From Chitinophagaceae bacterium (GTDB lineage Bacteria > Bacteroidota > Bacteroidia > Chitinophagales > Chitinophagaceae): DNA of 35,820 nucleotides. Positions 24,270 to 30,974 of the stretch are shown one piece after another; the stretch's first letter is position 1, and each line of letters begins with the position of its first letter. A program made the position numbers and the translations under genes. Below the pieces are notes generated by a model that was not told the origin of the DNA, ran no database searches, and worked only from the letters and a program-made list of their open reading frames with translations. The stretch is from NCBI GenBank assembly GCA_025451655.1, contig JANWKA010000032.1, positions 1-35,820 on the forward strand. Reading direction: 5' to 3'.

Positions 24270-24433
24270 GGGTCCGGGTATTGCCCTTTGGGCAGCTCCT
24301 TTTATTCATTTCGGAACCTGATCCCGGGCCAACTCCATTCAAGGGTTTCTCCAAAGAATGTTTTAATTTAACCAGGCAAACCCCGGGATGGGTCCTTTGA
24401 AAGTACATACAATTGGCAAAAAATAATAACCCG

Positions 24434-24736
24434 ATGAAAAAGCTCCTGATTTGCACCCTGCTTCTGGCCCCATTCCTGATCGTCCAGGGCCAGCAACCCG
24501 CCCATTCGAAAACCCGAACCACCCGGGTGGTTTATGTTTGCCCGAAATGCTTTGCTTCCTATACCCATCCGGGCCAATGTAAAAAGGATCAGGAGGACCT
24601 CGTGAAGATGGGGGATTATTTCTGTCCCCAATGCCTCATGGATGAGGGGAAAAACCCCGGCCATTGCAATATGGACGGAACGACCCTGGTGGAGATGACC
24701 TCCTCCTATATCAAGGCGCATCAATCCGGGTCTTAA
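24434..24736 (+). CDS. Secreted small Cys-rich protein with two tandem heavy-metal-binding-like motifs
   Basis: Signal peptide MKKLLICTLLLAPFLIVQGQ followed by duplicated CPxC-x(8-9)-PGxCxxDxxxLVxM-type motifs. Confidence 0.75.
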   Translation: MKKLLICTLLLAPFLIVQGQQPAHSKTRTTRVVYVCPKCFASYTHPGQCKKDQEDLVKMGDYFCPQCLMDEGKNPGHCNMDGTTLVEMTSSYIKAHQSGS

Positions 24737-24810: not shown

Positions 24811-26073
24811 ATGCAAATTCTGATCCGGCAGGCTCACCTCATCGATCCCCAGGGCCCTTTTCATGGTAGCAGCAACGATATCCTGGTCACCGACGGGATC
24901 ATCGAGGGGATTGGAAATTTCCCCGGAATCAAGGCAGACCGGGTGATTGAAGAAGAAGGAATTTGCGTTTCCCCTGGCTGGATGGATGTTTTCGCCCATT
25001 TCTGCGATCCCGGCACCGAATACAAGGAAGATCTCGAAAGTGGCCAGGCCGCTGCCGCCCACGGCGGATTCACTGCGGTGATGATCCTTCCGGATACCCG
25101 GCCCCCGCTTCAATCCAAGGCCGAAATAGAATATATCCGGGGCAAAGCTGCCGGGGGAATCGTCGACATTTATCCCATCGGGGCGCTCAGCATGGGGCTG
25201 GAAGGGAACCTTCTTGCAGAAATGTATGACATGCGCAAAAGCGGGGCCATTGCTTTCTCCAATGGCCTGAACCCCATTCAATCCTCCGGTATCCTGCTCA
25301 AGGCCCTGCAATACGTGAAGGCTTTCGACGGGGTGATCATCCAGGTCCCGGAGGACCGGAGCGTCAGCAGGCATGGCCTCATGAATGAAGGGGTGGTCTC
25401 TACCCGGATCGGAATGCCCGGCAAGCCGGCCATTGCCGAGGAGCTCATGATCCGAAGGGATCTGGAAATTACCAGATATGCGGGTTCCAGGATTCATTTC
25501 ACCGGAGTTTCCACGGCGGGAGCCGTTGCCCTGATCCGCCAGGCCAAATCCGAAGGCATCCGGGTCACGGCTTCCGTCACTCCTTACCATCTTTGCCTCA
25601 CCGATGAATCCCTCTCCGGCTATGACACCCGTTTGAAGGTCAACCCGCCCCTCCGTACCGGCGCGGATGTGGATGCCCTCAGGGCAGGGCTCCTGGACGG
25701 CACCATCGATTGCATGGCCTCCCACCATATTCCCCAGGACGCGGACGCCAAGGAGGTTGAATTCGAGTTCGCCAGGGAAGGGATGATCGGGCTGGAGACC
25801 TGCTTTTCCCTGATGCATGAATCCCTGGACCGGATGGACCTGGAGGACCAGGTATCCCTGCTTTGCCAAAACCCGAGAAAGATCTTCGGATTGGAGCCGC
25901 TTCATATCCGGGAGCAAGAAATGGCAAATCTCACTATATTTAACCCCGGCAGGTCCTGGACCTTTCAAAAGGAGGATATCCGGTCCAGGTCTTCCAATAC
26001 CCCGTTTATTGGAAAATCCCTGAAGGGGAAAATCATCGGGGTCATGAACCAGGGTAAGTCCTCTCTTCACTGA
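24811..26073 (+). CDS. Dihydroorotase-like amidohydrolase, probably non-catalytic
   Basis: Overall DHOase architecture (VSPGWMDVFAHFCDPG, MNEGVVSTRIGMPGKPAIAEELMIRRDLEI, VTPYHLCLTDESL, KVNPPLRTGADVDALRAGLLDGTIDCMASHH), but metal ligands are substituted. Confidence 0.88.
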   Translation: MQILIRQAHLIDPQGPFHGSSNDILVTDGIIEGIGNFPGIKADRVIEEEGICVSPGWMDVFAHFCDPGTEYKEDLESGQAAAAHGGFTAVMILPDTRPPLQSKAEIEYIRGKAAGGIVDIYPIGALSMGLEGNLLAEMYDMRKSGAIAFSNGLNPIQSSGILLKALQYVKAFDGVIIQVPEDRSVSRHGLMNEGVVSTRIGMPGKPAIAEELMIRRDLEITRYAGSRIHFTGVSTAGAVALIRQAKSEGIRVTASVTPYHLCLTDESLSGYDTRLKVNPPLRTGADVDALRAGLLDGTIDCMASHHIPQDADAKEVEFEFAREGMIGLETCFSLMHESLDRMDLEDQVSLLCQNPRKIFGLEPLHIREQEMANLTIFNPGRSWTFQKEDIRSRSSNTPFIGKSLKGKIIGVMNQGKSSLH

Positions 26074-26095: not shown

Positions 26096-26614
26096 ATGGA
26101 AAATTCAATCCCGAACCAGATCCCCAAAACCCATATCAGTTATGGGGTGATCACTGGCATTGTCATGTTCGTCCTTTTCGTCATCGTTTATTCCTTCGGG
26201 CTTTATACCAACCCGGCCGTGGGCATCATCCAGCTCCTGGTTTATATTGCCCTGATCATCGCAGCCGTGGTCAGTCATTCCAAAGCCATGGGCGGAAATG
26301 TCAATTTTGGAGATCTTTTTGTATCCGGATTCAAGGCCGTGGCGATCGCCACCCTGATCATATTGTTTTGCGTGGTGCTGTTTGATTTGCTGGTACCTTC
26401 CTATAAGGCCAGTATGGTGGAAATGGCAAGGCAGAAAATGGTCCTCAAAAATACTCCTGCTGACCAGGTCGATGCCGGGGTGCAGGGATACAGCCGGTTC
26501 TTCTTTGTTATTATGGTCGGCGGCATTTTGCTCAGTGATCTGATCGTTGGCGCCATCGCAGCCCTGATCGGGGCAGCGGTCGCCAAAAAGAACCCGAACG
26601 CGAAAAGTATCTGA
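26096..26614 (+). CDS. DUF4199 family membrane protein
   Basis: ISYGVITGIVMFVLFVIVYSFGL...NFGDLFVSGFKAVAIATLII...LIVGAIAALIGAAVAKKNP, typical of the Bacteroidota DUF4199 family. Confidence 0.82.
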   Translation: MENSIPNQIPKTHISYGVITGIVMFVLFVIVYSFGLYTNPAVGIIQLLVYIALIIAAVVSHSKAMGGNVNFGDLFVSGFKAVAIATLIILFCVVLFDLLVPSYKASMVEMARQKMVLKNTPADQVDAGVQGYSRFFFVIMVGGILLSDLIVGAIAALIGAAVAKKNPNAKSI

Positions 26615-26630: not shown

Positions 26631-27572
26631 ATGGATCTTTCCCTGGTCATTCCCCTCAAGAACGAGGCAGAATCCCTGCCCGAGCTTTGCCGGTGGATCG
26701 CAGGGGCGATCGGTAGATCAGGGCTCCGGTATGAGATCATCCTGGTAGACGACGGAAGCACGGACGGGTCCTGGGAGGTGATTTGCGGCCTGAGGAAAGA
26801 AAACAGTTCCATCAAGGGGCTGCGGTTTCAGCGCAACTACGGAAAATCAGCCGCTCTCAACGAGGGTTTCCGCGCCGCCACCGGCCAGGTGGTGATCACC
26901 ATGGATGCCGATCTCCAGGACAGCCCGGATGAGATCCTCCCCCTTTATAAAATGGTGGCCGGGGGTGGTTACGATCTGGTCAGCGGCTGGAAGAAAGTGC
27001 GCCATGACAACCGGATCACCAAAAACATTCCTTCCCGCGTTTATAACCGGATCACAGGCTGGATCTCCGGGATCCGGATCCATGATTTCAATTGCGGCCT
27101 GAAGGCATACCGCCTCAGCCTGGTCCAGTCCCTGGAGGTTTACGGGGAAATGCACCGCTATATCCCGGTCATCGCCAAAATGAACGGGTTCAGCCGGATC
27201 GGTGAAAAGGAGGTCCAGCACCGGCCCCGGAAATACGGAGTGACCAAATTTGGCTGGGAACGGTTTGTAAATGGGTTTCTGGACCTGATGTCCGTCCTGT
27301 TCATTGGCCGGTTCGGGAAAAAACCCATGCACCTGTTCGGCCTCCTGGGCACCCTGGCATTCCTGGCCGGTTTTATTATTTCCATCTACCTTGGAATTGC
27401 CAAATTTGTTTTCAGGGTCTACCAGATGACCGAAAGGCCCATCTTCTATATTGCCCTGGTGGCCATGATCATCGGGGTCCAGCTTTTTCTCGCCGGATTC
27501 CTGGCAGAACTCACGGTCCGCAACTCCCAGGAAAGGAACCATTACCTGGTGGAAGACCGGCTGGGGTTCTGA
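26631..27572 (+). CDS. Glycosyltransferase family 2 (polyprenyl-phosphate sugar transferase-like), C-terminal TM segments
   Basis: LSLVIPLKNEAESLPEL, EIILVDDGSTDGSWEVI, TMDADLQDSPDEI, two C-terminal TM helices. Confidence 0.92.
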   Translation: MDLSLVIPLKNEAESLPELCRWIAGAIGRSGLRYEIILVDDGSTDGSWEVICGLRKENSSIKGLRFQRNYGKSAALNEGFRAATGQVVITMDADLQDSPDEILPLYKMVAGGGYDLVSGWKKVRHDNRITKNIPSRVYNRITGWISGIRIHDFNCGLKAYRLSLVQSLEVYGEMHRYIPVIAKMNGFSRIGEKEVQHRPRKYGVTKFGWERFVNGFLDLMSVLFIGRFGKKPMHLFGLLGTLAFLAGFIISIYLGIAKFVFRVYQMTERPIFYIALVAMIIGVQLFLAGFLAELTVRNSQERNHYLVEDRLGF

Positions 27573-27608
27573 AGGCCGCCCGTTCGTCTTATCTTGGGAG
27601 GCAAACCC

Positions 27609-28772
27609 ATGAAATCCATCGTCATCATTGGTACAGCATATCCCCTGAGGGGGGGGCTCGCCGCCTATAACGAAAGGCTTGCCCGGGAAATGATCACCCT
27701 GGGTAACCGGGTGGTGATTTTCACCTTTTCACTCCAGTACCCTTCCTTTCTTTTTCCAGGCAAAAGCCAGTACAGCCAGGAGCCCCCACCCGAAGGGCTG
27801 GACATCCGGGTGCGGATCAATTCCATCAACCCCCTGAACTGGATTTCCTCCGGAAGGGAAATTCGGTCCCTGCGGCCCGACCTGGTCATTGTCAAATTCT
27901 GGATTCCTTTCATGGGCCCCTGTCTGGGCACCCTCCTCAGGATCACCAGGCGCAGAAGACCCACCCGGGTGGTGAGCATCCTGGATAATGTAATCCCCCA
28001 TGAAAAAAGACCCCTGGACCAGGCTTTCACAAAATATTTTTTGGGTTCCGTGGATGCCTTCGTGGCCATGAGCCGCAAGGTGATGGAGGATCTTTCCCGG
28101 TTCACCAACCGGCCGGTAAGCCTGGTTGCCCATCCCCTTTACGACAATTACGGTTCACCAATTTCCATGGTGGAGGCCCGCAGCCGGCTCGGGCTCCTCC
28201 TGGGAGCAAAGTATCTGCTGTTTTTTGGTTTCATCCGGGCCTATAAGGGCCTGGATCTTTTGCTGGAAGCCATGACCGATCCGCGGCTTTCGGGAATCCA
28301 CCTGATTGTGGCCGGGGAATGTTATGAGGACCGGGAAAAATACGAGGCGCTTTGGGCAGCGCCGTCCCTGAAAGGGAGGGTCTCCCTGTTCACGGATTTC
28401 ATACCTGCGGAGCAGGTCCGGTATTTTTTCTGCGCGGCAGACCTGGTCGTGCAACCCTACCGGGCTGCCACCCAAAGCGGCATTTCCCAGATTGCCCTGC
28501 AATATGAAAAACCCATGGTAGTTACCCGGGTGGGAGGCCTGCCTGAAATGGTTAAAGACCGGATCAATGGCCTGGTTTGCGAGCCGGAGCCGAAGTCCAT
28601 TGCCGATGCCATATGGGCTTATTTTGCCGAGAACCTGGAGGGGCCCTTGACCCAAAGCCTGAGGAGGGAAAAAGGCGGTTTTGGCTGGGACCTCATGGCC
28701 CGGGAGATCCTTCGACTCGGGGATGGCCCTCCAACCCCGAACCTGTTAAAATCTGGATTATGGAACCCATGA
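27609..28772 (+). CDS. Glycosyltransferase family 4 (GT-B fold)
   Basis: MKSIVIIGTAYPLRGGLAAYNERLAREM, FFGFIRAYKGLDLLLEAM, VVQPYRAATQSGISQIALQYEKPMVVTRVGGLPEMVKDRINGLV. Confidence 0.9.
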   Translation: MKSIVIIGTAYPLRGGLAAYNERLAREMITLGNRVVIFTFSLQYPSFLFPGKSQYSQEPPPEGLDIRVRINSINPLNWISSGREIRSLRPDLVIVKFWIPFMGPCLGTLLRITRRRRPTRVVSILDNVIPHEKRPLDQAFTKYFLGSVDAFVAMSRKVMEDLSRFTNRPVSLVAHPLYDNYGSPISMVEARSRLGLLLGAKYLLFFGFIRAYKGLDLLLEAMTDPRLSGIHLIVAGECYEDREKYEALWAAPSLKGRVSLFTDFIPAEQVRYFFCAADLVVQPYRAATQSGISQIALQYEKPMVVTRVGGLPEMVKDRINGLVCEPEPKSIADAIWAYFAENLEGPLTQSLRREKGGFGWDLMAREILRLGDGPPTPNLLKSGLWNP

Positions 28773-29278
28773 ACCCTCCCGGACAATCCGGTTTCTTTTG
28801 GAAATCCGGTATCATCACAGCCCTGGTAACCATGGGTCTGTTCCTGCTAATATACTATACGGGAGATGTCCTTTTGGTCTGGGTGCGACTCCCCCTGTCT
28901 TTGGTGTCAGTCGGACTGATCCTGACCGGGGTCATCATCCAGGGGAAAAAATGGGGAGGCCGGGGCAGTTTCGGGGGACTTTTCCTCGAGGGTTTGAAAG
29001 CTTCTGCGGTCTTCGCCGGAATTTTTACGGTGATGCATATCCTCTTCCTGATCCTGGTGCCGGGTTATGAGGCTGTCATCCTCGCTCATGTCAAGGCCCA
29101 GGAACAATATTCGGTCATGGTGAACGGGCCCAATCCGGGCTACGCCTTCTTCCGCAGGATTTTCCTTCCGATCCTGGTTTTTGGAAGATTGATTGGATCC
29201 TTTATGCTGGGCCTGTTCGGGTCCCTGATCGGAGCAGCTTGTGCACCCAAAACCCTACTGCCACCACAGGACTTTTAA
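28760..29278 (+). CDS. Second DUF4199-like membrane protein
   Basis: FGGLFLEGLKASAVFAGIF...LVPGYEAVILAHVKAQ...GLFGSLIGAACAPK aligns with the DUF4199 protein at 26096-26614. Overlaps the GT4 end by 13 nt. Start chosen at ATG 28760. Confidence 0.72.
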   Translation: MEPMNPPGQSGFFWKSGIITALVTMGLFLLIYYTGDVLLVWVRLPLSLVSVGLILTGVIIQGKKWGGRGSFGGLFLEGLKASAVFAGIFTVMHILFLILVPGYEAVILAHVKAQEQYSVMVNGPNPGYAFFRRIFLPILVFGRLIGSFMLGLFGSLIGAACAPKTLLPPQDF

Positions 29279-29322
29279 TGGAGCGGGGAAACCTGCATCC
29301 AAAAGAGTTCCACATTAACCTG

Positions 29323-29330
29323 TATTTTTG
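29323..29330 (+). promoter_or_regulatory. Candidate -7 element of the heptose operon
   Basis: TATTTTTG matches TAnnTTTG, 30 nt before ATG 29361. -33 not convincing. Confidence 0.35.
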
Positions 29331-29360
29331 CTCCGCCCCAAAAGAGGGTTACTTTATCGC

Positions 29361-30383
29361 ATGATTTACCGAAGTAAAGCGCCCTTACGCATCGGTCTTG
29401 CCGGAGGCGGGACCGATGTAAGCCCTTATACGGATCTCTACGGGGGCGCCATCCTCAATGCCACGATTTCCCTCTATGCTGCGGCCTCGGTGGAACCCCT
29501 GGACCAGGGAAGGATCATCCTGGAAGCGATGGACCGGGGGGAGCGGAAGGAACTTGCTTCTGCACCCCAGCTGGAACTGGACGGCACCCTGGATTTGTTC
29601 AAGGGAGTCTATAACCGCCTGGTCCGGGAATTTTCCACCGGCCCGCTCAGTTTCCGGCTCTGCACTTTTGTGGATGCTCCGGCGGGATCGGGCCTGGGAA
29701 CCTCCTCCACTTTGGTGGTGGCAGTCCTGGGGGCCTTCGCCGAATGGCTCAAGCTTCCCCTGGGAGAATATGATCTGGCCCGTCTTGCCTACGAAATCGA
29801 ACGGAAGGACCTGGGCATGGCCGGGGGCAGGCAGGATCAGTATGCAGCTACCTTCGGGGGGGTCAATTTCATGGAATTTTTTTCAGGGGACAAGGTGATT
29901 GTGAACCCTTTGCGCATTAAATCAAACTATTTAAATGAACTGGAGAACAACCTCCTGCTTTATTACACCGCTACCAGCAGGCAATCCAGCCTGATCATCG
30001 CGTCCCAGGTCCGCAATGTGACTGAAAAGAACCAGGCTTCCATTGAGGCCATGCATCAGCTGAAAATGCAGGCCGTTCACATGAAGGAAGCCCTGCTGAC
30101 CGGGAGGATACATGACATCGGGGAAATTCTGGATTTCGGATTCCGGCAAAAGAAAAAGATGACCGAGGGGATATCCAACCCGATGATCGAGGGAATCTAC
30201 CAGGCCGCCCGTTCGGCCGGAGCCACGGGCGGGAAGATCTCCGGCGCCGGTGGGGGCGGTTTCATGACCTTTTACTGTCCGTTTAACACCCGCTATGCCG
30301 TGATGCGGGCCCTGGAGCCTTATGGCGGCAATTTCATGAAATACCGTTTCACCCAGGAGGGATTGACCAGCTGGTCGATCTGA
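29361..30383 (+). CDS. hddA: D-glycero-alpha-D-manno-heptose-7-phosphate kinase (GHMP kinase)
   Basis: RSKAPLRIGLAGGGTDVSPYTDLYGGAILNATI, PAGSGLGTSSTLVVAVLGAF, GKISGAGGGGFMTFYC; cluster context. ATG 29361 preferred over 29328. Confidence 0.9.
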   Translation: MIYRSKAPLRIGLAGGGTDVSPYTDLYGGAILNATISLYAAASVEPLDQGRIILEAMDRGERKELASAPQLELDGTLDLFKGVYNRLVREFSTGPLSFRLCTFVDAPAGSGLGTSSTLVVAVLGAFAEWLKLPLGEYDLARLAYEIERKDLGMAGGRQDQYAATFGGVNFMEFFSGDKVIVNPLRIKSNYLNELENNLLLYYTATSRQSSLIIASQVRNVTEKNQASIEAMHQLKMQAVHMKEALLTGRIHDIGEILDFGFRQKKKMTEGISNPMIEGIYQAARSAGATGGKISGAGGGGFMTFYCPFNTRYAVMRALEPYGGNFMKYRFTQEGLTSWSI

Positions 30384-30395
30384 TAAATCCAGCCC

Positions 30396-30974
30396 ATGAC
30401 AGAAGACATCGCATCCATCATCCGGGAGTCCATACAGGTCAAGCAGGATTTGCTGGAAGACCCGGTCCTCCTGGCCCGGATCGGGGAAGCCACGACCCTC
30501 GTGGTGGTCGCCCTGAAAAGCGGCCACAAGGTGCTATTTTGCGGAAACGGTGGCAGCGCGGCCGACGCCCAGCACCTGGCGGCTGAGCTTTCCGGGAAAT
30601 TTTACCTGGACCGGGACCCTCTTCCTGCCGAAGCCCTGCACTGCAATAGCTCTTACCTGACCGCGGTGGGGAACGATTTTGGTTACGATCAGGTTTATTC
30701 CCGGATGATCCGGGGTTTTGGCCACCCGGGCGATGTCCTGATCGCCCTTTCCACCTCCGGGAATTCCAAAAATGTCATCAATGCCCTCCGGGAGGCCGAG
30801 CTTGCCGGGATGGTCCGGATTGGAATGACCGGGGCCACAGGCGGAGCTATGAAGGACCATTGCCAATGCCTGCTCAACATGCCCTCAACCGACACGCCCC
30901 GGATCCAGGAAGCCCATATCCTGGTCGGCCATATTCTCTGCCAGCTGGTGGAGTCCCAACTCTTCAGGCCATGA
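30396..30974 (+). CDS. gmhA: Sedoheptulose-7-phosphate isomerase
   Basis: VLFCGNGGSAADAQHLAAELSGKF, LIALSTSGNSKNVINAL (SIS domain). Confidence 0.93.
   Translation: MTEDIASIIRESIQVKQDLLEDPVLLARIGEATTLVVVALKSGHKVLFCGNGGSAADAQHLAAELSGKFYLDRDPLPAEALHCNSSYLTAVGNDFGYDQVYSRMIRGFGHPGDVLIALSTSGNSKNVINALREAELAGMVRIGMTGATGGAMKDHCQCLLNMPSTDTPRIQEAHILVGHILCQLVESQLFRP

Follow-up and report, generated by a model that had tools for sequence, protein, structure and literature searches.

The locus analysed here raises the question of what a dihydroorotase homologue is kept for once its metal site is gone. The window, i.e. the whole stretch of DNA under analysis (35,820 nucleotides of contig JANWKA010000032.1 from the Chitinophagaceae bacterium assembly GCA_025451655.1), contains an ORF that an earlier note had delimited correctly (Table 1) and that encodes a full-length homologue of type I dihydroorotase (DHOase), here named PyrC'. 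The protein scores 341.8 bits against TIGR00857 (cut-off 279.05) and belongs to that family by score, and automatic pipelines relying on this score alone would label it dihydroorotase. The fold motifs PGWMD, MNEG, KVNPPLR and DGTID, listed in the earlier note as kept, are all intact. The AlphaFold monomer model (pLDDT 87.5, pTM 0.90) has as its top match in the PDB 3d6n_A (TM 0.90, 33% identity), the Aquifex DHO taken from the ATC-bound complex, and the Aquifex DHO chains are also the closest solved relatives in sequence comparison. Among named genomes, the nearest relatives come from Chitinophagaceae or Bacteroidota MAGs, which makes it almost certain that the host belongs to that family.

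The metal ligands of Aquifex DHO are H61, H63, D153, H180, H232 and D305 (PMC3880350), and the ligand positions of all loci were scored by mapping onto this protein. PyrC' has F61, H63, G152, V179, G232 and H305 at these positions and keeps one ligand of six (H63). The claim that essentially all metal ligands had been lost is borne out for five of them, the substrate Arg65 is replaced by Cys, and the altered motifs described at the time (FAH, HFCDPG, AFSNGL, VPED, HFTGVST, and ASHHIPQ) are all found. The change from AFSDDG to AFSNGL is indeed a loss, but the ligand itself is the second Asp of TDDG (D153), which is now Gly, and the Asn stands at the neighbouring D152. Judged by its residues, PyrC' is not a catalytic DHOase despite its TIGR00857 score.

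Table 1. Coordinates of PyrC', its former metal site, its conserved loops and its neighbours in the window, and of related genes at other loci
Feature	Position	Strand	Remark
PyrC', type I DHOase homologue without metal site, 420 aa	24811..26073	+	family score, alignment, AlphaFold model
F61-A62-H63 (HxH motif)	24991..24999	+	first His to Phe (TTC), second His kept (CAT)
C65 (TGC)	25003..25005	+	replaces substrate-binding Arg65 of HxRxPG
N151-G152	25261..25266	+	replace D152-D153; ligand D153 to Gly
V179	25345..25347	+	replaces ligand His180
Loop around MNEGVVSTRIGMPG, ~residues 189-202	25375..25416	+	conserved, low monomer-model confidence; candidate partner-binding loop
G232	25504..25506	+	replaces ligand His232
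KVNPPLR region, ~residues 274-284	25630..25662	+	candidate PyrB contact
H305	25723..25725	+	replaces ligand Asp305
DUF4199 protein	26096..26614	+	PF13858, 56.9 bits; not placed in mechanism
Family-2 glycosyltransferase (GT2)	26631..27572	+	not placed in mechanism
Group-1 glycosyltransferase	27594..28772	+	not placed in mechanism
Hymenobacter plasmid pyrB-pyrC pairs	L286:1923-4275; L287:1868-4221
~350-aa proteins of family f94	L275:254-1294; L276:932-1981; L277:923-1981	-; -; +
Azospirillum/Sinorhizobium ligand-poor DHOase beside pyrB	L285:1519-3784; L288:1519-3778

A survey of these substitutions, as the earlier note had suggested, found the ligand loss to be class-wide. None of 123 in-class orthologues (43 in-class loci and 80 Chitinophagaceae loci) has the full ligand set, whereas all 27 sister-class orthologues have six of six ligands as well as the substrate Arg. 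Among the 43 in-class loci, 12 keep no ligand, 20 keep one, three keep two, seven keep three and one keeps four; the 80 Chitinophagaceae loci keep none (27) or one (53). This consistent pattern, a dN/dS of 0.03-0.08 between close Chitinophagaceae pairs and the lack of in-frame stops among the orthologue matches listed show that PyrC' is neither a chance nor a decaying gene. The lost catalytic site would fit a remnant without function that is carried along in a conserved operon, but we give this reading hardly any credence given the low dN/dS, an ORF that is intact in about 240 of the 295 genomes of the host's class and its persistence in varied genomic locations. Phe61, Gly152 and His305 are fixed in 80 of 80 Chitinophagaceae loci (L035-L114), although these proteins share just 50-58% identity with the PyrC' of the window, and they perhaps form a repacked core. 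The old site is therefore locally constrained, as would be expected if PyrC' were still catalytic, either metal-free or with re-evolved ligands. This is highly improbable, as the former ligand positions vary across the class without any shared replacement ligand set, and the site region is further eroded in the relics of families f87 and f94 (see below).

We consider it quite likely, by analogy with Pseudomonas, that PyrC' is a class A2-type pseudo-DHOase that supports PyrB assembly, with a gene unlinked from pyrB. In P. aeruginosa, the ATCase without pDHO is monomeric and inactive, and pDHO is thought to bridge PyrB trimers (PMC7053772). PyrC' dimers would similarly link PyrB trimers, in the manner of DHO in the Aquifex 6:6 complex, and PyrB would be assembled or stabilised through this bridging, while the third step, dihydroorotate formation, would be carried out by an unlinked DHOase of the 2gwn type. 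If PyrC' scaffolds PyrB and the 2gwn-type DHOase does the chemistry, selection would retain the PyrB-facing loops (MNEGxxSTxLG, KxxPPLR, and DxKxxEF) and let the metal site drift. Near-complete ligand loss across the class at such a low dN/dS argues for this role, as does a best structural match to the DHO of an ATC complex.

Loop A of Aquifex DHO, together with two further loops, lacks order in the free protein and becomes ordered on ATC binding (PMC3880350). The blocks of low model confidence in PyrC' (181-200, 271-280, and 311-320) hold several of its invariant residues, which include E193 in the MNEG loop, K276, P279, P280, R282, K314, and E317. Loops that are conserved but modelled with low confidence in a dead enzyme suggest that they bind a partner, and they may be contacts with PyrB. 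The KVNPPLR region is preserved better than any other segment, eroded relics included, and KxxPP survives in those of f94.

PyrC' descends from a type I DHOase whose gene is often adjacent to pyrB in sister lineages. In a tree built without any Pseudomonas sequence, the ligand-less proteins fall into one clade (SH-aLRT 100; bootstrap 100/100) nested within the ligand-complete DHOases of the phylum, and the metal site need have been lost no more than once, in the ancestor of the host's class, to account for this topology. The ligand-complete orthologue directly follows pyrB at nine of 27 sister-class loci (L018, L020, L024, L206, L208, L209, L212, L213, and L220), usually in the order pyrR-pyrB-pyrC, which is the class A1 ATCase arrangement. 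PyrB of genomes with PyrC' groups with PyrB of these pyrB-pyrC loci. The nesting of one PyrC' clade in ligand-complete, often pyrB-linked orthologues is a further argument for a PyrB scaffold. In the host's class, pyrR and pyrB mostly stay joined and pyrC' lies elsewhere. This is also the case in the host genome, where pyrC' is on contig C32 and pyrR-pyrB is on C31 (L003), and this lack of adjacency speaks against a scaffold. The papers searched contain no description of this protein in Bacteroidota, though one may exist elsewhere.

If PyrC' does not make dihydroorotate, another protein should. Following another suggestion of the earlier note, we searched the host genome for a second DHOase and found one of the 2gwn type, with most ligands kept (L002, contig C26); by that note's own criterion, its absence would have refuted the pseudo-enzyme reading. 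Of 47 in-class genomes, 46 have such a protein scoring more than 270 bits, and none of 33 genomes from other classes has one; the best match in the latter is, as a rule, their class I DHOase. No type II PyrC scores above the cut-off in 38 genomes with PyrC'. From its distribution we infer that the 2gwn-type protein is the working DHOase, and its class-wide presence without a type II PyrC over the cut-off counts in favour of a scaffolding PyrC'. In 18 of the 21 sequences aligned (L002:1399-2790, which has QxH, and L225-L244), the HxH motif of this presumed working DHOase starts with Gln instead of His (DQVHFREPG); the Lys, Asp and remaining His ligands are retained. The two proteins co-occur in nearly all PyrC' genomes tested, which might mean that PyrC' binds the 2gwn-type DHOase, instead of or besides PyrB, and acts as its allosteric partner or as a hub of the pathway. 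We regard this as very unlikely, as this DHOase is still present in genomes with PyrI and in those of family f4, which lack PyrC', and therefore does not need it. Also encoded in the host genome (2.29 Mb) are the large chain of carbamoyl-phosphate synthase and, beside pyrR, an intact PyrB of the ancestral type (315 bits); no PyrI was found in this 86% complete assembly.

The distribution of PyrC' follows the PyrB lineage. PyrI is found in 11 of the 295 genomes of the class, none of which has PyrC', and PyrC' is present in approximately 240-260 of the 284 genomes without PyrI. This mutual exclusion has a P of about 1e-9 to 1e-11 if genomes are independent, a value that ignores shared ancestry and overstates independence because the families with PyrI may be one lineage. 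PyrB of the genomes with PyrI forms a separate lineage in the tree, as does PyrB of f4, where PyrC' is absent from six of six genomes searched. PyrC' is likewise absent from f9, which also has a PyrB of a different lineage, and neither protein was found in f84, G166, and G537. A foreign, ligand-complete, adjacent pyrB-pyrC pair occurs in f9 (G072; L245) and on two Hymenobacter plasmids. The G072 pair had been a candidate for a ligand-less pyrB-pyrC' pair and was dropped when it proved foreign and ligand-complete; E-values of the class-wide scan alone are thus no proof of ligand loss.

Where the ancestral-type PyrB is retained, PyrC' or an eroded relic is almost always retained as well. Diverged PyrC' proteins of f75 and f87 that the first scan missed were recovered by profile search. 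Three genomes of f94 encode a protein of ~350 aa with weak similarity to PyrC' (E ~1e-9) that keeps a KQLPPY segment and is probably an extremely eroded relic. We take the absence of PyrC' from all genomes with PyrI, the coincidence of its loss with PyrB replacement (PyrI clade and f4), the foreign pair of f9 and Hymenobacter, and what is kept in the apparent exceptions f75, f87 and f94 as arguments for a PyrB scaffold. The idea that PyrB evolves faster where PyrC' seemed lost (f87, f94, and f75) was abandoned because of these diverged proteins and the likely f94 relic, and because the second DHOase of f87 and f94 is also unusually diverged.

Other observations count against a scaffold. No PyrC' was found in the draft genomes G525 and G529, which have an ancestral-type PyrB, and G312 shows the reverse, with a PyrC'-like gene (L251) and no PyrB found. 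G379 was left out, as it has a PyrI-type PyrB and a fragmented assembly. The mirror-tree correlation of PyrC' with PyrB (r=0.68) is not separated from that with the control PyrR (r=0.64). In addition, the top PDB matches of the host PyrB include the ATCase of B. subtilis, a trimer that needs no partner.

The earlier note had also observed that PyrC' is flanked by DUF4199 and glycosyltransferase genes instead of pyr genes, as we confirm, and had offered a new role as an alternative. PyrC' might be tied to the DUF4199 membrane protein and the glycosyltransferases, for instance in envelope polysaccharide synthesis. At the 80 Chitinophagaceae loci PyrC' neighbours GT2, in most cases with a DUF4199 detected in between and GT4 next, and this neighbourhood also occurs at L032, L189, L195, L201, L203, and on a 12.5 kb plasmid of Rufibacter tibetensis (L284, NZ_CP012645.1; PyrC'-DUF4199-DUF4199-GT2-GT4). 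The pyrC'-DUF4199-GT2 synteny is thus conserved in Chitinophagaceae but not in the majority of other families with PyrC': 16 of 20 of their loci have no GT2 or DUF4199 match within ~5 kb, and the presence of PyrC' tracks the PyrB lineage and not these neighbours. We therefore keep these genes out of the mechanism and consider the new role very unlikely. Further downstream lies a heptose/glycan cluster (28577-30974 of the window) with a second DUF4199-like protein (below cut-off), an HddA-like heptose-7-phosphate kinase gene and a GmhA-like gene. On the other side, positions 24413-24736 encode a small protein that is rich in Cys and probably exported; it repeats CPxC/HPGxC-like motifs, has no match in Pfam or NCBIfam and looks like a metal-binding protein.

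Returning to PyrC' as a support of PyrB, a bolder and doubtful version is that this class-wide ATCase scaffold, once a DHOase, is becoming a purely structural or regulatory subunit in the part of PyrI, possibly with an effector site of its own in the emptied pocket. Under such remodelling, f87 and f94 would be cases in which the barrel has shrunk or diverged and only the putative PyrB-facing segments are left. If PyrC' supports PyrB, a class A2-like ATCase whose dead DHOase subunit is encoded at a distance from pyrB is in use across most of a very large bacterial class, numerous proteins annotated as dihydroorotase are misnamed, and the 2gwn type is the real DHOase. The series from active subunit to dead scaffold, eroded relic and PyrI replacement would also lend itself to testing how an enzyme changes into a structural subunit.

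Among known systems, PyrC' most resembles the Pseudomonas PyrC' (pDHO) of class A2 ATCase, an inactive type I DHOase homologue that also lacks the zinc ligands (PMC7053772). In both, the catalytic DHOase is encoded elsewhere, there is no PyrI and the ancestry is linked to PyrB, and by this analogy membership among class A2 pseudo-DHOases is probable. The analogy to Pseudomonas, already drawn in the earlier note, fits best given the second DHOase, the pyrB-linked ancestry and the absence of PyrC' with PyrI or a foreign PyrB. Unlike in Pseudomonas, the gene in the window is unlinked from pyrB, the ligands were lost inside the Bacteroidota DHOase clade and the complex is putative. The best sequence and structure match is the DHO of Aquifex aeolicus, part of the class A1 DHO-ATC dodecamer (3d6n, 4bjh), which, unlike PyrC', has retained the ligands and shows activity within the complex. 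Azospirillum and Sinorhizobium encode a ligand-poor DHOase (RLGHHD and RFGEES at the six positions) that shares the kept scaffold motifs but lies directly beside pyrB. It forms a separate clade from PyrC' on the best tree, although the AU test does not reject a clade uniting the two (p=0.28), and it is a likely further pseudo-DHOase lineage. Finally, the fungal CAD-like pseudo-DHO (ura2 type, cited in PMC7053772) is likewise an ATCase-associated DHOase fold without zinc ligands, but is a domain of a fusion protein, whereas the PyrC' of the window would be a free subunit.
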